Source of the DNA: an uncultured Peptococcaceae bacterium
Lineage (GTDB): Bacteria > Bacillota > Peptococcia > Peptococcales > Peptococcaceae
Assembly: GCA_949743265.1 (NCBI GenBank)
Contig: CATJSX010000031.1
Span: forward strand, 1 to 33,868
DNA length: 33,868 bases
Reading direction: 5' to 3'
Translations under genes and position numbers: made by a program
Shown: positions 12,037 to 22,018 of the stretch, one piece after another
Layout of the letters: every line of letters starts with the position of its first letter
Numbering within the stretch: the first letter of the stretch is position 1
Notes under the pieces: model-generated
Databases searched by the model: none
Seen by the model: the letters and a program-made list of their open reading frames with translations, nothing else
Told to the model about the DNA's origin: nothing

Positions 12037-13884
12037 ATGAAAAAAATAGTTACACTATTCTTAGTGGCCACTGTGTTGTTAACTGGCTGTGGCAGCAATA
12101 CGACGCTAGTAGAAGAAATTATTTTTGAGAATGCTGAAAAAGTCAGCAGTGATTATGATATCATCGTTGTTGGAGGAGAACCAGAAGGGATTGCAGCGGC
12201 GGTATCGGCGGCCAGAAACGGCATGAGAACATTATTGATTGAAGATGATGGTGCCTTGGGTGGGCTGATGACTTTAGGAAAACTCAATTTTATTGATATG
12301 TGTAATGGGCGTGACGGTACGTTATTGACGCAAGGCATATTTGAAGAATTTTATAATGCGGTTGATGGTAGTGCTTTCGATGTGACGGAAGCAAAAAATG
12401 TTTTTTTGCAAATGGTTGTTAACGAACCTAATTTGACGTTGCGGCTTAATTGTCAATTCGTTGCGCCAGTCAAAGATGGCGATACGATTATCGGCATTAC
12501 CGCCAGAGAAAATGGCAGTACGGTAACTTATTTGGGTAAACGTATTATTGATGCAACCGTAGACGCTGATGTGGCGGCTGCTAGCGGTGTGCCGTATACT
12601 TTTGCCGGTGAAGACATTGGCGAAAAAGACCGTCAGATGGGCGTGACGCTGGTTTTTGAACTTTCTGGTGTTAACTGGAACAAAATATTTTTGACCTTAA
12701 ATTGGCAGCGTTTTAAAGCTAATACGTTTAGCGGTTCTGCTGATATGGGTGCGACTAAAAAAATGGCGTGGGGTTTTACTGAAGAAGGTTATGGCTATGA
12801 ACCGCAAGACGATATGATGCGTTTGCGAGGCTTCAATATTGCTCGCCAAGATAATGGCAATGTGCTGATCAACGCTTTGATCATTTTCGGCGTCGATGTC
12901 CTTGATGAAGAAAGCAAAGCGGAAGGTATCGCACGCGGTAAAAAAGAATTAACGTATATTTTGCCTTATATTCGAGAGAATTTTGCTGGATTTGAAAAAG
13001 CAGAACTGGTAGGTACAGCAGAGCAGCTCTATGTGCGCGAAAGCCGACATATTATTGGCGAATATCAACTAACTATTGACGATGTTTTGGAAAATCGCGA
13101 CCAATGGGATAAAATTGCTATTGGCAGTTATCCTGTTGACGTTCAGCCTACGGCGACACAGCGTTATGGTACCGTTATCGGCGCGCCTGATCGCTATGCG
13201 GTGCCTTTTCGTTCTTTAGTGCCACTAAAGGTAGAAAATTTGTTGGTTGTCGGACGTAGCGCTTCTTATCAATCGCTTGCTGCTGGCAGTGCTCGCGTAA
13301 TTCCTTTAGGTATGGCCGAAGGTGAAGCGGCCGGTGTCGCGGGCGCTTATAGTGTTAAACAGCAGGTGAGTTTTCGAGAAATGACGACTGATAAAGAAGC
13401 TATTGCCGTTATTCAACAAACATTAAAAGAACAAGGTGCCTATTTAGAAGATATTCAAGTTGAACCAGAACCGTTCATGACGCATTGGGCTTATTCTGGC
13501 GTTAAAGTACTGCGTTCGTTAGGACTTTTGGATGGTGGCTACAGCAACGATTATCATTTAGAGGATCAACTGAGTCGGTGGCGCTATCAAAATATGATTA
13601 ACGGAGTGTTAAAAAAAGCTGGCATTGTTACTGATTATATTGAAGTCAATGATCAGCCGCCTAACCGACAAATTATTGGTACAATGGCAAGAGAAGCCGC
13701 TAAACTGGATGGCGTAAAATATGAAAATGTTTATGACATTTACAAAGATGCTCTCTACGAGCGAGGGATTATGACCGAAGAACTGGCACCTTATTTTGCT
13801 GATGGTGAAAAAAATCCGCAAGCGGCTGAAGTGATTATGCTTTGTGCTAATTTCTACAATTGGATAATCGCTAATCATCAATAA
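12037..13884 (+). CDS. Lipoprotein FAD-dependent oxidoreductase
   Basis: A 615-aa flavoprotein of the FAD_oxidored (PF12831-like) group with a lipoprotein signal peptide: a basic start, a hydrophobic stretch at residues 4-15, and a lipobox LTGC with the lipidated cysteine at C18. It should be exported by Sec and membrane-anchored outside the cytoplasm. The FAD motif is at 45-54 (VVGGEPEGIA), where the central glycine of the usual GxGxxG is replaced by E48; similar variants occur in relatives. A second conserved block, around residues 400-445, ends in AEGEAAGVAGAYS. The last 150 residues resemble a helical SLH-like repeat region (LRSLGLLDGGYSNDYHLED). AGGAGG at 12026-12031 precedes ATG 12037. 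It stands alone, and its substrate is unknown. Confidence 0.85.
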   Translation: MKKIVTLFLVATVLLTGCGSNTTLVEEIIFENAEKVSSDYDIIVVGGEPEGIAAAVSAARNGMRTLLIEDDGALGGLMTLGKLNFIDMCNGRDGTLLTQGIFEEFYNAVDGSAFDVTEAKNVFLQMVVNEPNLTLRLNCQFVAPVKDGDTIIGITARENGSTVTYLGKRIIDATVDADVAAASGVPYTFAGEDIGEKDRQMGVTLVFELSGVNWNKIFLTLNWQRFKANTFSGSADMGATKKMAWGFTEEGYGYEPQDDMMRLRGFNIARQDNGNVLINALIIFGVDVLDEESKAEGIARGKKELTYILPYIRENFAGFEKAELVGTAEQLYVRESRHIIGEYQLTIDDVLENRDQWDKIAIGSYPVDVQPTATQRYGTVIGAPDRYAVPFRSLVPLKVENLLVVGRSASYQSLAAGSARVIPLGMAEGEAAGVAGAYSVKQQVSFREMTTDKEAIAVIQQTLKEQGAYLEDIQVEPEPFMTHWAYSGVKVLRSLGLLDGGYSNDYHLEDQLSRWRYQNMINGVLKKAGIVTDYIEVNDQPPNRQIIGTMAREAAKLDGVKYENVYDIYKDALYERGIMTEELAPYFADGEKNPQAAEVIMLCANFYNWIIANHQ

Positions 13885-14085: not shown

Positions 14086-14787
14086 TTAATGGGAGGATTC
14101 TGTTGTCATAGTTTGCTCGTCATAAAGTCGTCCGTCGACGATATGGTAAACGCGTTCTGCATGATGACCAACTTTTTGATCATGGGTAATCATGATAATG
14201 GTGTGACCCATCGTATTCAGCTCTTCAAATAAAGCCAAAACATCATCGCCAGTTTTTGAGTCTAAAGCGCCAGTAGGCTCATCGGCCAATAGAACTGCTG
14301 GATTGCAAACTAAAGCTCTAGCAATAGATACTCGTTGTTGTTGACCGCCGGAAAGTTCATTAGGTTTATGCGTCAATCTTTTGCCTATACCTAAAAGCTC
14401 TAGTTTTTCTTTTGCTCGTGCAATAGCTTCATTTTTAGGTATACCGCGGATTAAAAGCGGCAAAATCGTATTGAGCAGCACATTATATTTGCTGATTAGG
14501 TGATAACGCTGAAAAATAAATCCGATAAACTGATTACGGACTTGTGCCAAATTATCGTCAGCAATATCATGAATCGCTAAATTATCCAAGTAATACTCTC
14601 CTTCATCAGCGGTATCCATACAGCCAATGATGTTCATCAGCGTTGATTTGCCGCTGCCGGAAGGACCGAGAATCGAAACGAATTGCCCTTTTTGCACTTC
14701 TAAATTGATATCGAATAATACTTGTAGTTTTTCAGCGCCTAGAGCATACGATTTGTTTAAATGGCTAATGCTGAGTAATGCTGTCAT
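14086..14787 (-). CDS. MacB-type ABC transporter ATP-binding protein
   Basis: A 233-aa ATPase of the MacB/LolD class that powers the permease encoded two genes upstream in the operon. All key motifs are intact: Walker A GPSGSGKST at 41-49, Q-loop Q93, signature LSGGQ at 145-149, Walker B VLLADE at 165-170 and H-loop H202. I place the start at ATG 14787, preceded by GGAGGG at 14795-14800, rather than at an upstream ATG that would add 28 residues lying inside the lipoprotein gene. The start overlaps the lipoprotein stop by 23 bases, so the two are translationally coupled. In E. coli MacB this domain is fused to the permease; here it is separate. Confidence 0.93.
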   Translation of the reverse strand: MTALLSISHLNKSYALGAEKLQVLFDINLEVQKGQFVSILGPSGSGKSTLMNIIGCMDTADEGEYYLDNLAIHDIADDNLAQVRNQFIGFIFQRYHLISKYNVLLNTILPLLIRGIPKNEAIARAKEKLELLGIGKRLTHKPNELSGGQQQRVSIARALVCNPAVLLADEPTGALDSKTGDDVLALFEELNTMGHTIIMITHDQKVGHHAERVYHIVDGRLYDEQTMTTESSH

Positions 14788-15169
14788 GGTATCCCTCCAA
14801 AAGTTCAGCGTGGTTGATAACAGTTTCATCGCCATTAGTGTCATAACGGCATTTGATCCAATCGCCAACAAGTAAATCCTGACAATTCAAATTTTCTTTA
14901 CCAGCTGTAATCAGTGTATCTTCCGAAAGATAGACGACCTTTGTTTGTTCACTGGCTTCCCATTCGGTTATAGAATCTTCCGTCAAATAATCATCAGTGA
15001 CGATTTGTATTGTCGAATCTGCTAATGCTAATGTCAGCGTCTGTCCGTCAATGGCTTTGATTTGACCGATAATGGACTGCGTAGAGTAGCTGACTTGTTG
15101 TTCGCTGTCGCAGCCACTTAAGGCGACGATTAGAGAAAGAACCAGCGTGTTTATCCAAAAATTTTTCAT
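14765..15169 (-). CDS. Small lipoprotein of the exporter operon, 134 aa
   Basis: A 134-aa predicted lipoprotein with signal peptide and lipobox LSGC, lipidated at C20. The mature part begins with a short beta-barrel-like motif (SIIGQIKAIDGQTLTLAL, about residues 32-49), reminiscent of DUF5666-like domains, and continues as an acidic beta-rich domain with one later cysteine (LNCQDLL). AAAGGAGG at about 15178-15185 precedes ATG 15169. It is encoded between permease and ATPase, which suggests it is an accessory subunit, a substrate-binding factor or a sensor for the exporter. I know of no assigned function. Confidence 0.75.
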   Translation of the reverse strand: MKNFWINTLVLSLIVALSGCDSEQQVSYSTQSIIGQIKAIDGQTLTLALADSTIQIVTDDYLTEDSITEWEASEQTKVVYLSEDTLITAGKENLNCQDLLVGDWIKCRYDTNGDETVINHAELLEGYHDSITQH

Positions 15170-15211
15170 GATAGGAGCCTCCTTTGCTAAACACGTTTTT
15201 GGTGAATTGGA

Positions 15212-16519
15212 TTAACTTTGATTTAAAGCGTCAATAGGTTTTAAATTAGCCGCTTGATAAGCGGGGTAAAAACCAAAGAGCGTTCCTGTAGCGACGGCAA
15301 AAATGAGCGCCATCACTGCACCGGTAGTACTAGGCAAAACACTCATGCCCGTATAGCGAATGAGCGGCATCAAAAGATAACTAATGATGATGCCCATAAC
15401 GCCGCCAAAAATGCTAATTAAATTAGCTTCCAGTAAAAATTGCAGCAAAATATCCCGTTTGGAGGAACCTAGCGCTTTTAAAATGCCGATTTCATTAGTT
15501 CTTTCTTTGACGGAAATAAAAAGCACGTTCATAATTCCAATACCTCCGACGATAAAAACAATGCTGGCAACAGCGATTAACAAAACTGAAAGGGTGTTGG
15601 CTGATTGCTGGCTGGCTGCCACTTGGCTGCCAGCGTCTTCAACATTAAAGCTGCCTTTGGGGTACATTTCCGACAAAAGCTGTTCAATATTGGCAATGGT
15701 CGTTTCTATTATGTTAATATCATTGACTAATACGATAATTTGCGGTGAGTAATTTCTGGCGCCCATGACGTATTTTTCCGCAGTTGTCAAGGGAATATAG
15801 AGCGCGCTGTCCAGCGTAATGCCAGAAACAACTGAGCCTGTTTTTTCTAGTACGCCAACGACAGTGAATTTTTTGCTGTTGATATTGATTACACTGCCAT
15901 AAGCGTCAAAAATATTATCAAACATTTCAGCCGCCGCGTCGTAGCCCAAAACGGCAATTTTTTCATTGCTTTCTACAGCTTCTTCGTCAAAGAAAGTGCC
16001 TTGCAACAAAGAAAGATTGGTGATTTCTTGATAAGTAGGCGTTGCTCCAACGATAGTTTTTGTGGCTTCTTCTTCCATATCGCCACCCTCTACTGTACTG
16101 GAGGATTGTGCCATTAAGCAAATATCATCAATATTATTAACGAAAAATGTCATTTCTTCCAGATCCGCTTCTGAAAAAGTTGTTGGCTCGATGCGCATAT
16201 TGGCGCCGAAACCACCAAAACCCATCATCGGGAAATCGCCGCCACGATTGCCGCCGGATCCGCCGCGACTACCACCGCCCATTGGCGCGTCGCGAAACAT
16301 ACCGCCAGAGGATGAAGTGCTGTTATCAGAAATAGTTACGGTACCTGCATTTAAATTTTTAAATTGTTCTTCAACATCATGCTGACCGCCTTGACCGATA
16401 GCAATCACAATAACGATGGTTGCTGCACCGACAATGATGCCCAAAGAAGTTAAAATTACTTTAAATTTGCTTTCTAAAATGTTAATCCAAACTAAAGCGA
16501 GGAGTTCTTTAAAAGCCAC
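15212..16519 (-). CDS. MacB-type ABC transporter permease (FtsX domain)
   Basis: A 435-aa permease of the MacB/FtsX type. One N-terminal membrane span (about residues 21-42) is followed by a large extracytoplasmic domain and three C-terminal spans (from about residue 315). These flank the conserved motif MNVLFISVKERTNEIGILKA, typical of MacB permeases. The extracytoplasmic domain carries an unusual Gly-rich insert at about residues 72-106 (GGGSRGGSGGNRGG). I chose GTG 16519 because a strong GGAGGAGG motif lies just upstream (about 16527-16536); the longer frame from 16597 would run inside the adaptor gene. The start overlaps the adaptor gene by 11 bases, so the two are coupled. Confidence 0.92.
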   Translation of the reverse strand: MAFKELLALVWINILESKFKVILTSLGIIVGAATIVIVIAIGQGGQHDVEEQFKNLNAGTVTISDNSTSSSGGMFRDAPMGGGSRGGSGGNRGGDFPMMGFGGFGANMRIEPTTFSEADLEEMTFFVNNIDDICLMAQSSSTVEGGDMEEEATKTIVGATPTYQEITNLSLLQGTFFDEEAVESNEKIAVLGYDAAAEMFDNIFDAYGSVININSKKFTVVGVLEKTGSVVSGITLDSALYIPLTTAEKYVMGARNYSPQIIVLVNDINIIETTIANIEQLLSEMYPKGSFNVEDAGSQVAASQQSANTLSVLLIAVASIVFIVGGIGIMNVLFISVKERTNEIGILKALGSSKRDILLQFLLEANLISIFGGVMGIIISYLLMPLIRYTGMSVLPSTTGAVMALIFAVATGTLFGFYPAYQAANLKPIDALNQS

Positions 16520-18452
16520 TGGATCTTCCTCCTCCTGCTGGTGCGCCGCCCGCTGGCATACTGTTGCCAGCAAAAATGCCGCTGTCGGAACGACCATTAA
16601 AATTACTTTCGATTAGCACAATATCTCCTTCATTTAAGCCAGAAAGGATTTCTACATTGACACCGTCGGTAAAACCAGTCGTTACTTCTACTAAACTATT
16701 GGAGCCGTCGGCATTTTTTACTTTAACCAGCGAGAGACCGTCTTTATCAGTGGTAATAGCGCGTTTAGAAACTTTTATCACATCATTGACTCGTTCGGAA
16801 ACCAGTTCCACTTGACAAGACATGCCGTTATAAATGTTTTCCAGTCCTTCTCCGCTCAAAAGTACAGTAACCGAATAATTGACCACCGGCGCACCCATCA
16901 CTGCTGGCGAAATGCTGATAGCATCAACTTTTCCTGTAAAAGTTTGATCGTCAAAAGCATCAAAAGTGACAATGGCTTCTTGATCCAATGAAACATCGCC
17001 GATATCTTCTTGATCCAATGTTAAATTAACCGTTACTTCATCAGAACGACTAATAGTGATAGCGGCTTCCAACAAATTAACATCGTCACCAGCGGCAAAA
17101 TCCACATCGGTTACTAAACCATCGCAAGGGGCTACGATAGTAGAGCCTTTCAAAATACTATTCATTTTACTGATAGCCGCTCCTAGTTTATCTACTTTAT
17201 TTTGGGCGGTGACCACATTAAGCTCTAGTTGATTCAGTGTGCTTTGATAAGTCAAATCAGCTGTTTCGCTGGTAGCAAGTTCTTTGAGACGTTGATTTTC
17301 TGCGGCTAAAATATTGGCTTCATAGTTTAATTCGTAATCATTCAGCGCTAGTTGGGCTTCTTTAATATCTAATTCTAGTTGAGAAACTTTGCGCGCTAAA
17401 TCGTTTTTGCCCATAGAACCGTACATTTCCCGATATTCTTCGGCATAATCGTTGTACGTTTCTTGTGCATCTTCATAAGTCTTTTTAGCGTTCTCTGTCC
17501 GATCTTCAAGTGTATTATATTGTTCGACGGTTTTGCTATATTTATTGATAATATTGACAGCATCATTGAGTTGTTCTGACAATGAGCTGTAAGTTTTTTG
17601 CGCATTAGTAATGCCTTCGTTTAAATCAGCGTCGCCGTCATAACCCTGATAATAATCCAGCGTGGCGCGTGCCGTATTTAATTCTTTGACTAAATTATCA
17701 ATGCTTTTTTCTGCATTATGGTATGAAGTAACCACCTGACCGTTATCTTTATTGTAATCGTCAAAGGTTTCTTGCAAGGCTTCATAAGTATCTTTGCCAC
17801 TGTCCATTAGTCGTTCAAAAACGTTTAAGTTTGCTGTTCTTTCATCATAGCTATTGTACAACTTTAAATAGTACTCGTAATCATCTTGCGCATTTTGCAG
17901 ATTTTGTTTATATTGCGCTAATGTATTGTCAATTTTGCGTACGTTGCTTTCGTAGGTGCTGTTGGCGGTTTGCGCCAGCGATTGGTTGACGCTTTTTTCA
18001 GCTTGCGCTTCAGTGGTATTTTTTTGTTGCGTTAGTTTGGCTTGCTCCAATTTTAATATCGCTTGTTGATACTCGTTGTTTAGCGTGTTTAAGACTGTAT
18101 TCAACGAGGATTTTTCAATGGTAAAGAGCGGCTGACCGGCGGTAACATATTCGCCGGATCGTACCAACACGTCTTCGATAGCGACGTCCAGATTGACCTT
18201 AACGTCATCAATCGTTACGTCGACGTCTAACTTGGTTGAAACAGTATTGACATTGGCGGTGCCTTCTTCGGTTAGACCAATAATAATATCGCCGCGTTCT
18301 GCCCGTTCTTCTCGAGCCGTTGTTTGCCCCATGGCTTCTTGATCACGCGCCATATACCAATAAATGCCTCCGCTTAGTACGCCTACCGCCAAAAGAACTA
18401 CCGTTGTGCGACGCAATGTTTTTTTCGTCAATATTTCCCGTATTTTTTTCAC
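16509..18452 (-). CDS. MacA-like periplasmic adaptor with very long coiled coil
   Basis: A 647-aa membrane-fusion (HlyD/MacA-type) protein that should connect the inner-membrane ABC exporter to an outer component. It has a membrane anchor at about residues 17-34, a lipoyl half-motif at about 80-113, a helical coiled-coil region of about 320 residues (115-435), the second lipoyl half (STIVAPCDGLVTDV), a beta-barrel domain, and a Gly/Pro/Ala-rich tail ending GGRSSGF. MacA proteins are usually near 370-400 aa, so the hairpin is greatly enlarged. GTG 18452 with GAGGAG at 18462-18467 is preferred over the ATG 45 bases upstream, which has no Shine-Dalgarno. It is the first gene of a four-gene operon. 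Confidence 0.88.
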   Translation of the reverse strand: MKKIREILTKKTLRRTTVVLLAVGVLSGGIYWYMARDQEAMGQTTAREERAERGDIIIGLTEEGTANVNTVSTKLDVDVTIDDVKVNLDVAIEDVLVRSGEYVTAGQPLFTIEKSSLNTVLNTLNNEYQQAILKLEQAKLTQQKNTTEAQAEKSVNQSLAQTANSTYESNVRKIDNTLAQYKQNLQNAQDDYEYYLKLYNSYDERTANLNVFERLMDSGKDTYEALQETFDDYNKDNGQVVTSYHNAEKSIDNLVKELNTARATLDYYQGYDGDADLNEGITNAQKTYSSLSEQLNDAVNIINKYSKTVEQYNTLEDRTENAKKTYEDAQETYNDYAEEYREMYGSMGKNDLARKVSQLELDIKEAQLALNDYELNYEANILAAENQRLKELATSETADLTYQSTLNQLELNVVTAQNKVDKLGAAISKMNSILKGSTIVAPCDGLVTDVDFAAGDDVNLLEAAITISRSDEVTVNLTLDQEDIGDVSLDQEAIVTFDAFDDQTFTGKVDAISISPAVMGAPVVNYSVTVLLSGEGLENIYNGMSCQVELVSERVNDVIKVSKRAITTDKDGLSLVKVKNADGSNSLVEVTTGFTDGVNVEILSGLNEGDIVLIESNFNGRSDSGIFAGNSMPAGGAPAGGGRSSGF

Positions 18453-18629
18453 TTCAAAAACTCCTCTCACTTTAGTTGATGTTCCTATCATAATCAACTT
18501 TTGTGTTCAATTTGTGAGAAACAATTTAAAAAAATGTCAGCATTAGGAAAAAGAAAGGTTTGCGATTTCAAACATTTTAATCATTAAAGGTTCTATAACT
18601 TTGTTTTAGCGTTTTCAAGACTCTTTAAA

Positions 18630-18658
18630 TAAATATTATTGAAAAATGTTCTTGTCAA
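18630..18658 (-). promoter_or_regulatory. Possible promoter of the MacAB-like operon
   Basis: On the minus strand TTGACA (18658-18653) is followed after 17 bases by TATTTA (18635-18630). The -35 is perfect and the -10 is weak. It would give a leader of about 170 nt. The -35 overlaps the plus-strand -35 of yjdF on the other strand. A perfect TTTAAT-C-ATTAAA inverted repeat at 18576-18588 lies in this leader and might be an operator, although such AT-only repeats arise easily by chance. Confidence 0.35.
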
Positions 18659-18680
18659 AGCGTCGAGAATTTTTTACAAT
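18652..18680 (+). promoter_or_regulatory. yjdF: Sigma-A promoter of the yjdF leader
   Basis: TTGTCA at 18652-18657 and TACAAT at 18675-18680 are spaced by 17 bases, each with one mismatch to consensus. Transcription would begin near 18687, just before the structured leader. This is the only good plus-strand promoter in the gap. Confidence 0.75.
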
Positions 18681-18694
18681 AAAAATGAGAGATA

Positions 18695-18800
18695 AAAACA
18701 CAGTGCCGGTCGGTAGTCCGTGCCGCAAAGATTTTCTTTGTCAGTAACCTGCCTCCTTGGTTGTCCGTTCTCTTTTTAGATAAATAAAGGAGGAATAGTC
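18695..18800 (+). promoter_or_regulatory. yjdF: yjdF-type riboswitch (azaaromatic-sensing RNA)
   Basis: The leader between promoter and yjdF start carries GGTCGGTAGTCCGTGCCGC (18708-18726), a hairpin GCAAAGA/TCTTTGT (18725-18731 with 18735-18741), and the block CAGTAACCTGCCTCC (18742-18756). I recognise this pattern, placed before a yjdF gene, as the yjdF RNA motif, a riboswitch class reported to bind diverse azaaromatic compounds. CCTCCTT at 18752-18758 is the exact complement of the AAGGAGG Shine-Dalgarno at 18787-18793, so translational control by sequestration is directly visible. The class assignment is from memory and gene context; the anti-Shine-Dalgarno pairing is seen in the sequence. 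Confidence 0.8.
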
Positions 18801-19220
18801 ATGCAATGGGTGAAAACATCTTTTACGTTGTGCTTTGCAGAACCTTTTTGGATGGGGTTGTATGAACGATGGGATAATGATGGGTATGCTGTGGCTAAAG
18901 TAACTTTTGGCGCTGAACCCAAACTGGGAGAAATCCATCAGTTGCTTTTGCATCCCAAAAATACTTTCCATTTTACGCCGCATTTAGCAGCTGAAGCAAC
19001 GGAAATAAAAATAATCAATCCTAAGCGGCAGCAGCGAATGATTCAAAAGCAAATGCAGCGTGCATCATTAAGTACTAAGGCTCAGGAAGCGCTGAAAATG
19101 CAACGACAGTTAGCAAAAGACAGTCGTCAAAAACAATGCAAACAATCTAAGCAACAGCAGCAGGAAGAACGGTTCGTCAAAATTCAAACCAAGCGCAAAG
19201 CCAAGCATCGAGGGCATTGA
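18801..19220 (+). CDS. yjdF: YjdF family protein (DUF2992)
   Basis: A 139-aa protein of the YjdF (DUF2992) family. The first 70 residues form a beta-rich domain with the family pattern FAEPFWMGLYER and AKVTFGAEPKLGEI. The rest is very basic and Gln/Lys-rich (KQCKQSKQQQQEER, then KRKAKHRGH) and probably helical. The biochemical role is unknown; it is thought to respond to azaaromatic or related toxic metabolites because of the riboswitch that precedes it in many Firmicutes. ATG 18801 has AAGGAGG seven bases upstream. It is monocistronic, divergent from the MacAB-like exporter; no clear terminator was found after it. Confidence 0.9.
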   Translation: MQWVKTSFTLCFAEPFWMGLYERWDNDGYAVAKVTFGAEPKLGEIHQLLLHPKNTFHFTPHLAAEATEIKIINPKRQQRMIQKQMQRASLSTKAQEALKMQRQLAKDSRQKQCKQSKQQQQEERFVKIQTKRKAKHRGH

Positions 19221-21839: not shown

Positions 21840-21869
21840 TTGATATTTCATTCATATGAAAAGTATAGC
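21840..21869 (+). promoter_or_regulatory. Possible internal promoter before rplJ
   Basis: TTGATA at 21840-21845 and TATAGC at 21864-21869 are 18 bases apart, and a perfect palindrome TTCATATGAA (21851-21860) lies in the spacer. Initiation would fall just at the start of the L10 leader. Firmicutes such as Bacillus have a separate rplJ promoter at this place. Confidence 0.4.
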
Positions 21870-21870
21870 T

Positions 21871-21963
21871 GTAGACAGCAGGTGTGGCATACACTTAATT
21901 TCCTGCCGAGGCCTTATTGCTTTGTGCAATTTCTGCCTTTGTGTCGCTACGCAAAGGCTTTTT
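21871..21963 (+). promoter_or_regulatory. L10 (rplJL) leader with attenuator
   Basis: A structured leader sits between rplA and rplJ, where the ribosomal protein L10 leader family is found. GCAGG 21878-21882 pairs with CCTGC 21902-21906, forming the probable L10/L12-binding arm. ATTGC/GCAAT forms a hairpin at 21916-21930. A 10-bp terminator stem at 21935-21944/21949-21958 is followed by TTTTT. AGGC at 21909-21912 can instead pair with the terminator's left arm (GCCT 21935-21938), giving an antiterminator. Excess L10 would thus lower rplJL expression. Confidence 0.8.
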
Positions 21964-22018
21964 GTATGTATAAAGATTTAGCAATGACTAGATAAAGGTC
22001 GAAAAGGGGGTGAACCGG

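Follow-up and report, generated by a model that had tools for sequence, protein, structure and literature searches.

The leader of yjdF in the window, by which we mean the whole 33,868-nucleotide stretch of DNA analysed here from an uncultured Peptococcaceae bacterium, is very probably a riboswitch of the azaaromatic class (yjdF, RF01764), acting on the translation of this single gene and switching it on when ligand is bound. The leader belongs to the RF01764 family, carries an exact complement to the Shine-Dalgarno (SD) sequence that covaries with it across homologues, can adopt two mutually exclusive pairings and contains no terminator.

Scanning the whole window against Rfam returned two matches above the curated thresholds, one to the ribosomal protein L10 leader and one to the 'azaaromatic' (yjdF RNA) family. 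The latter scores well above its curated cut-off of 45 bits (E 1.3e-13) and extends over model positions 1-101 of 101, and all of the defining features of the RF01764 class that sequence can address are present. The ATG of yjdF follows 16 bases past the aptamer match, and residues 8-139 of its product cover positions 1-132 of 132 of the PF11208 profile. A sequence-only reading of this DNA had proposed a yjdF-type riboswitch ahead of a yjdF gene and a scan with the Rfam covariance model (CM) as its check; both the RNA, matched at full length, and the gene are confirmed, and the motifs that it named, CAGTAACCTGCCTCC (18742-18756), CCTCCTT and AAGGAGG, are correct to the base. A search of the genome found one RF01764 RNA and one yjdF gene, and yjdF is evidently the only gene under control of the riboswitch leader.

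The elements of the leader and its surroundings are collected in Table 1. Seven of the eight pairs of P1 are standard, U18686 x U18775 being broken. The conserved pocket strands UAAAAACAC, GGUAGU, CAGUAACCU and UGUCC are all present in the CM alignment, as are the strands named by the crystal structure (AACAC, GGUAGU, AGUAAC and the CC of J4/1, whose partner in the solved relative is the GG of L2b; PMC10987639). These conserved strands depart from the class at one base only: 18711, second in L2b, carries C in place of U, and the equivalent position is not named as a pocket contact in the structure paper (PMC10987639). P2b is broken at C18706 x U18721 and U18704 x C18723 in the model register; in a shifted register, with U18704 and U18721 bulged, it reaches -4.2 kcal/mol vs -9.7 kcal/mol for the consensus stem. 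In four relatives (L002, L005, L010 and L012) P2 is undisturbed, unlike in the window. Just upstream of the aptamer lies a promoter-like site, for which we argue from position rather than score, since 3.4 equally good sites per 1.2 kb are expected by chance. As this site ends at 18680, the transcript is predicted to start at about 18687, inside P1, and P1 may therefore comprise only six to seven pairs.

Table 1. Positions of the riboswitch elements, yjdF and neighbouring features in the window
Feature	Position	Strand	Basis or remark
Divergent MacAB-like efflux operon	14086-18497	-	Shares intergenic region with riboswitch
Sigma-70-type promoter-like site, TTGTCA-17-TACAAT	18652-18680	+	10/12 consensus matches; predicted
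Azaaromatic (yjdF) riboswitch aptamer	18682-18784	+	RF01764, 75.3 bits, full length
P1, 5' strand	18685-18692	+	CM alignment, pair listing; partner 18769-18776
J1/2, UAAAAACACA, ligand-pocket strand	18693-18702	+	Same as conserved consensus block UAAAAACACa; pocket role from PMC10987639
P2b stem with T-loop-like L2b (UCGGUAGU, 18710-18717)	18703-18724	+	CM alignment; stem weaker than consensus
P3 hairpin, six pairs (6/6)	18725-18741	+	CM alignment, pair listing
J3/4, CAGUAACCU, ligand-pocket strand	18742-18750	+	Same as consensus
P4, three pairs (G18751-U18761, C18752-G18760, C18753-G18759), loop UCCUU	18751-18761	+	Pair listing
Anti-SD CCUCCUU, common to P4 and OFF-state duplex	18752-18758	+	Exact 7-base complement, pairing probability, swap test
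J4/1 with UGUCC	18762-18768	+	Consensus match
P1, 3' strand	18769-18776	+	CM alignment, pair listing
SD AAGGAGG of yjdF	18787-18793	+	7 bases before ATG
yjdF (DUF2992), 139 aa	18801-19220	+	PF11208, E 4.8e-39, 134.1 bits
Ribosomal protein L10 leader, between rplA and rplJ as expected	21851-21973	+	RF00557, 78.2 bits

P4 and the P4:SD duplex both use C18752, C18753 and the whole loop, and are therefore mutually exclusive. No terminator-like site was found between the aptamer and the ATG, which rules out transcription-terminator control and, taken with the mutual exclusion, identifies the switch as a translational one; control at the level of translation is thus well supported. The minimum-energy fold of the leader without ligand is the OFF state. 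In the ligand-free ensemble each P4:SD pair has a probability of 0.77-0.92 and the SD is unpaired with a probability of 0.00-0.11. Taken as a whole, the leader has no exceptional folding energy (z -0.67). In the mechanism that we propose, the anti-SD would pair with the SD in the absence of ligand and block the ribosome. A planar azaaromatic-type ligand, as judged from homologues, would occupy the pocket formed by J1/2, L2b, J3/4 and J4/1; P4 would then form, with anti-SD bases 1 and 2 in its stem and the other five in its loop. By analogy with the same homologues, this would free the SD for production of YjdF, giving an ON switch, and the ligand-bound RNA would also offer the ribosome tRNA-like help. 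The sequence-only reading had the ligand-bound fold either releasing or trapping the ribosome binding site (RBS): its anti-SD switch is supported, and the direction that it left open is probably ON, given the behaviour of tested members.

Several properties count against this explanation, namely a P2 weakened by bulges or broken pairs and the shortness of P1 and P4. By secondary-structure energies, which take no account of tertiary contacts, ligand or cotranscriptional folding, the aptamer fold lies approximately 9 kcal/mol above the OFF fold, and because of this the window copy might be a poor switch or require much ligand. A more radical reading of the same features is that the copy is degenerate, its damaged P2 no longer supporting ligand binding and its anti-SD holding yjdF constitutively low. 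The mismatched or bulged P2 described above would fit such a loss, and the system does decay, since four other genomes with the RNA have a broken yjdF. We nevertheless consider degeneracy unlikely, as the CM score of 75 bits falls within the 45-99.6 range of the RF01764 loci found, the pocket residues are retained and yjdF is intact and full length.

The bulged P2 might alternatively mark a subtype of the riboswitch with a shifted ligand preference, the MacAB-like operon next door serving the same toxic compounds; we regard this as very doubtful. The operon encodes an HlyD-type adaptor, a 134 aa putative lipoprotein without a Pfam match, a MacB/FtsX permease and an ABC ATPase, and on the other side yjdF is followed by rpmG-secE-nusG-rplKA, as read from the open reading frames. 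No such operon was found beside yjdF in the two genomes of the same family (G010 and G011) and three of the same class that we inspected, which rules it out as a clue to the ligand. Indeed, the neighbours of yjdF differ each time in these five genomes, and the expectation that each new genomic context would be informative fails. The context in the window sheds no new light on the class question of the natural ligand and the role of YjdF. Elsewhere in the window, at 12037-13884 (+), a FAD-dependent oxidoreductase (PF12831) carries a lipoprotein-type signal sequence (LLTGCGS).

For the riboswitch as a ligand-ON translational switch, the pairing between P4 and the SD is central. CCUCCUU is, as had been claimed, an exact seven-base complement of AAGGAGG. 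Dinucleotide shuffles of the 100-base leader contained CCTCCTT in 1.4% of cases and, in 12%, some 7-base stretch complementary to the 21-base SD region; because of the latter figure a match in a single sequence is weak evidence when taken alone. Using RF01764 matches gathered from related genomes (32 leaders, 18 distinct P4 sequences), we set the P4 strand of each leader against the SD region of that leader and against those of the others. In this swap test the native P4:SD duplexes averaged -15.3 kcal/mol vs -12.8 kcal/mol for swapped ones (sd 0.43), and none of 100,000 permutations equalled the native pairing across the 32 leaders. Kinship among leaders inflates the test somewhat; retaining one leader for each of the 18 distinct P4 sequences, which limits this inflation without removing it, gave p 5e-5, and a re-run on 29 leaders had the same outcome. 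Compensating changes are visible in individual leaders: where the window has CCUCCUU/AAGGAGG in P4/SD, homologues have CCUCCUAA/UUAGGAGG (L010), UCCCCCUC/GAGGGGGA (L004), CCUCCUG/CAGGAGG (L014), CCCCUG/CAGGGG (L024) and, with one G-U pair, CUCCUCG/CGAGGGG (L022). P4:SD pairing across homologues therefore exceeds chance.

The window leader itself gives a mixed picture. With its own SD it forms a Watson-Crick run of 7, above the mean of 6.0 with other SD regions, but its own duplex, at -11.9, is slightly weaker than the -12.9 that its P4 would reach with the average other SD. The covariation is thus a property of the class, of which the window leader is an ordinary, rather short case. The same comparison bears on the only other candidate for the anti-SD, the P1 3' strand (UUCUCUUUU), which lies shortly before the SD and would place switching in P1 instead of P4. 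This strand does offer a 9-pair match to the SD, G-U pairs included; however, its pairing is far weaker on average (-6.4 vs -15.3 kcal/mol for P4) and hardly specific (native vs swapped, p 0.03 for all leaders and 0.16 for distinct P4 sequences). We reject it as the anti-SD, and masking of the SD by P1 is accordingly highly improbable. That the complement arises by chance and lacks function, with purine-rich SDs facing a P4 that is pyrimidine-rich for reasons of the aptamer, is in keeping with the 12% of shuffled leaders but hardly credible given that changes in P4 and SD coincide across homologues.

The product of the regulated gene was considered through an AlphaFold model, locally good (pLDDT 83.6, pTM 0.39), in which a three-stranded sheet with a helix precedes a long helix at residues 92-136. 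The second half of YjdF is very basic (21 K/R to 4 D/E), and no hydrophobic membrane segment was found in the protein, its best 19-residue Kyte-Doolittle mean being 0.62. A function could not be drawn from the fold through a convincing solved relative: Foldseek gave no match to the model at E 0.001 or better, the best VIA-align Z, 4.6, is a value that common arrangements also reach, and a search for sequence relatives in the PDB found none. YjdF has been suggested to be an exporter (PMC7266159). The modelled architecture, which combines a small sheet domain with a long basic helix and lacks any membrane segment, speaks against this suggestion, and it is tempting to guess at a soluble protein that binds nucleic acid or the ribosome. 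In four genomes (L015, L017, L018 and L022), three of them from one genus, yjdF follows an intact riboswitch but is itself broken, the lesion varying between frameshift, inner stop and truncation. This diversity of lesions suggests that YjdF may have been lost repeatedly while the RNA persists, although the broken genes could be assembly errors.

An anti-SD has been proposed for the yjdF class since 2010. In Bacillus subtilis, azaaromatics turn a reporter ON, and P4 contains an 11-nucleotide complement to the RBS (PMC4793209). Work on the RNAs of S. aureus and S. ratti describes an off state in which the RBS is paired with 9-11 nucleotides of P4, and a tRNA-like fold of the liganded RNA that further assists translation (PMC9142559). 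In the crystal structure from Ruminococcus gauvreauii, UUCCUCCUUA lies in P4 and is complementary to the RBS (PMC10987639). The tested members switch in one direction: ligand folds P4 and leaves the SD free, and the ligand-free RNA has its SD paired with the P4 strand (PMC4793209, PMC9142559, PMC10987639). Hence the anti-SD described as 'directly visible' is the published expression platform and not a new one; for the class, the literature already records the RBS-complementary P4 motif and the direction of switching (ON), along with a crystal structure, and notes that the natural ligand is unsettled. What is particular to the window leader is small, comprising the weakened P2 stem, the short P1 and the adjoining divergent efflux operon. 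Since the class has already been validated and crystallised, the leader, as one further member, has little importance alone, and the P4-SD covariation over homologues provides useful statistical support for the published platform.

Set beside the B. subtilis riboswitch (PMC4793209), which has an 11-nucleotide complement and a tested ligand response, the window RNA, known from sequence, shares the alternative pairing of P4 with itself or with the RBS and, by analogy, a translational ON switch. Its 7 continuous SD pairs compare with the 9-11 nucleotides reported for studied members. The R. gauvreauii riboswitch (PMC10987639) has an extra stem, P2a, that the window RNA lacks, and the two have in common the CCUCCUU motif in P4 and the pocket of L2b, J1/2, J3/4 and J4/1. 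Measured against the RF01764 class as a whole, the window departs in the second base of L2b and in its bulged P2, and shares the full aptamer, the conserved pocket strands, a P4 with an RBS complement and yjdF downstream.
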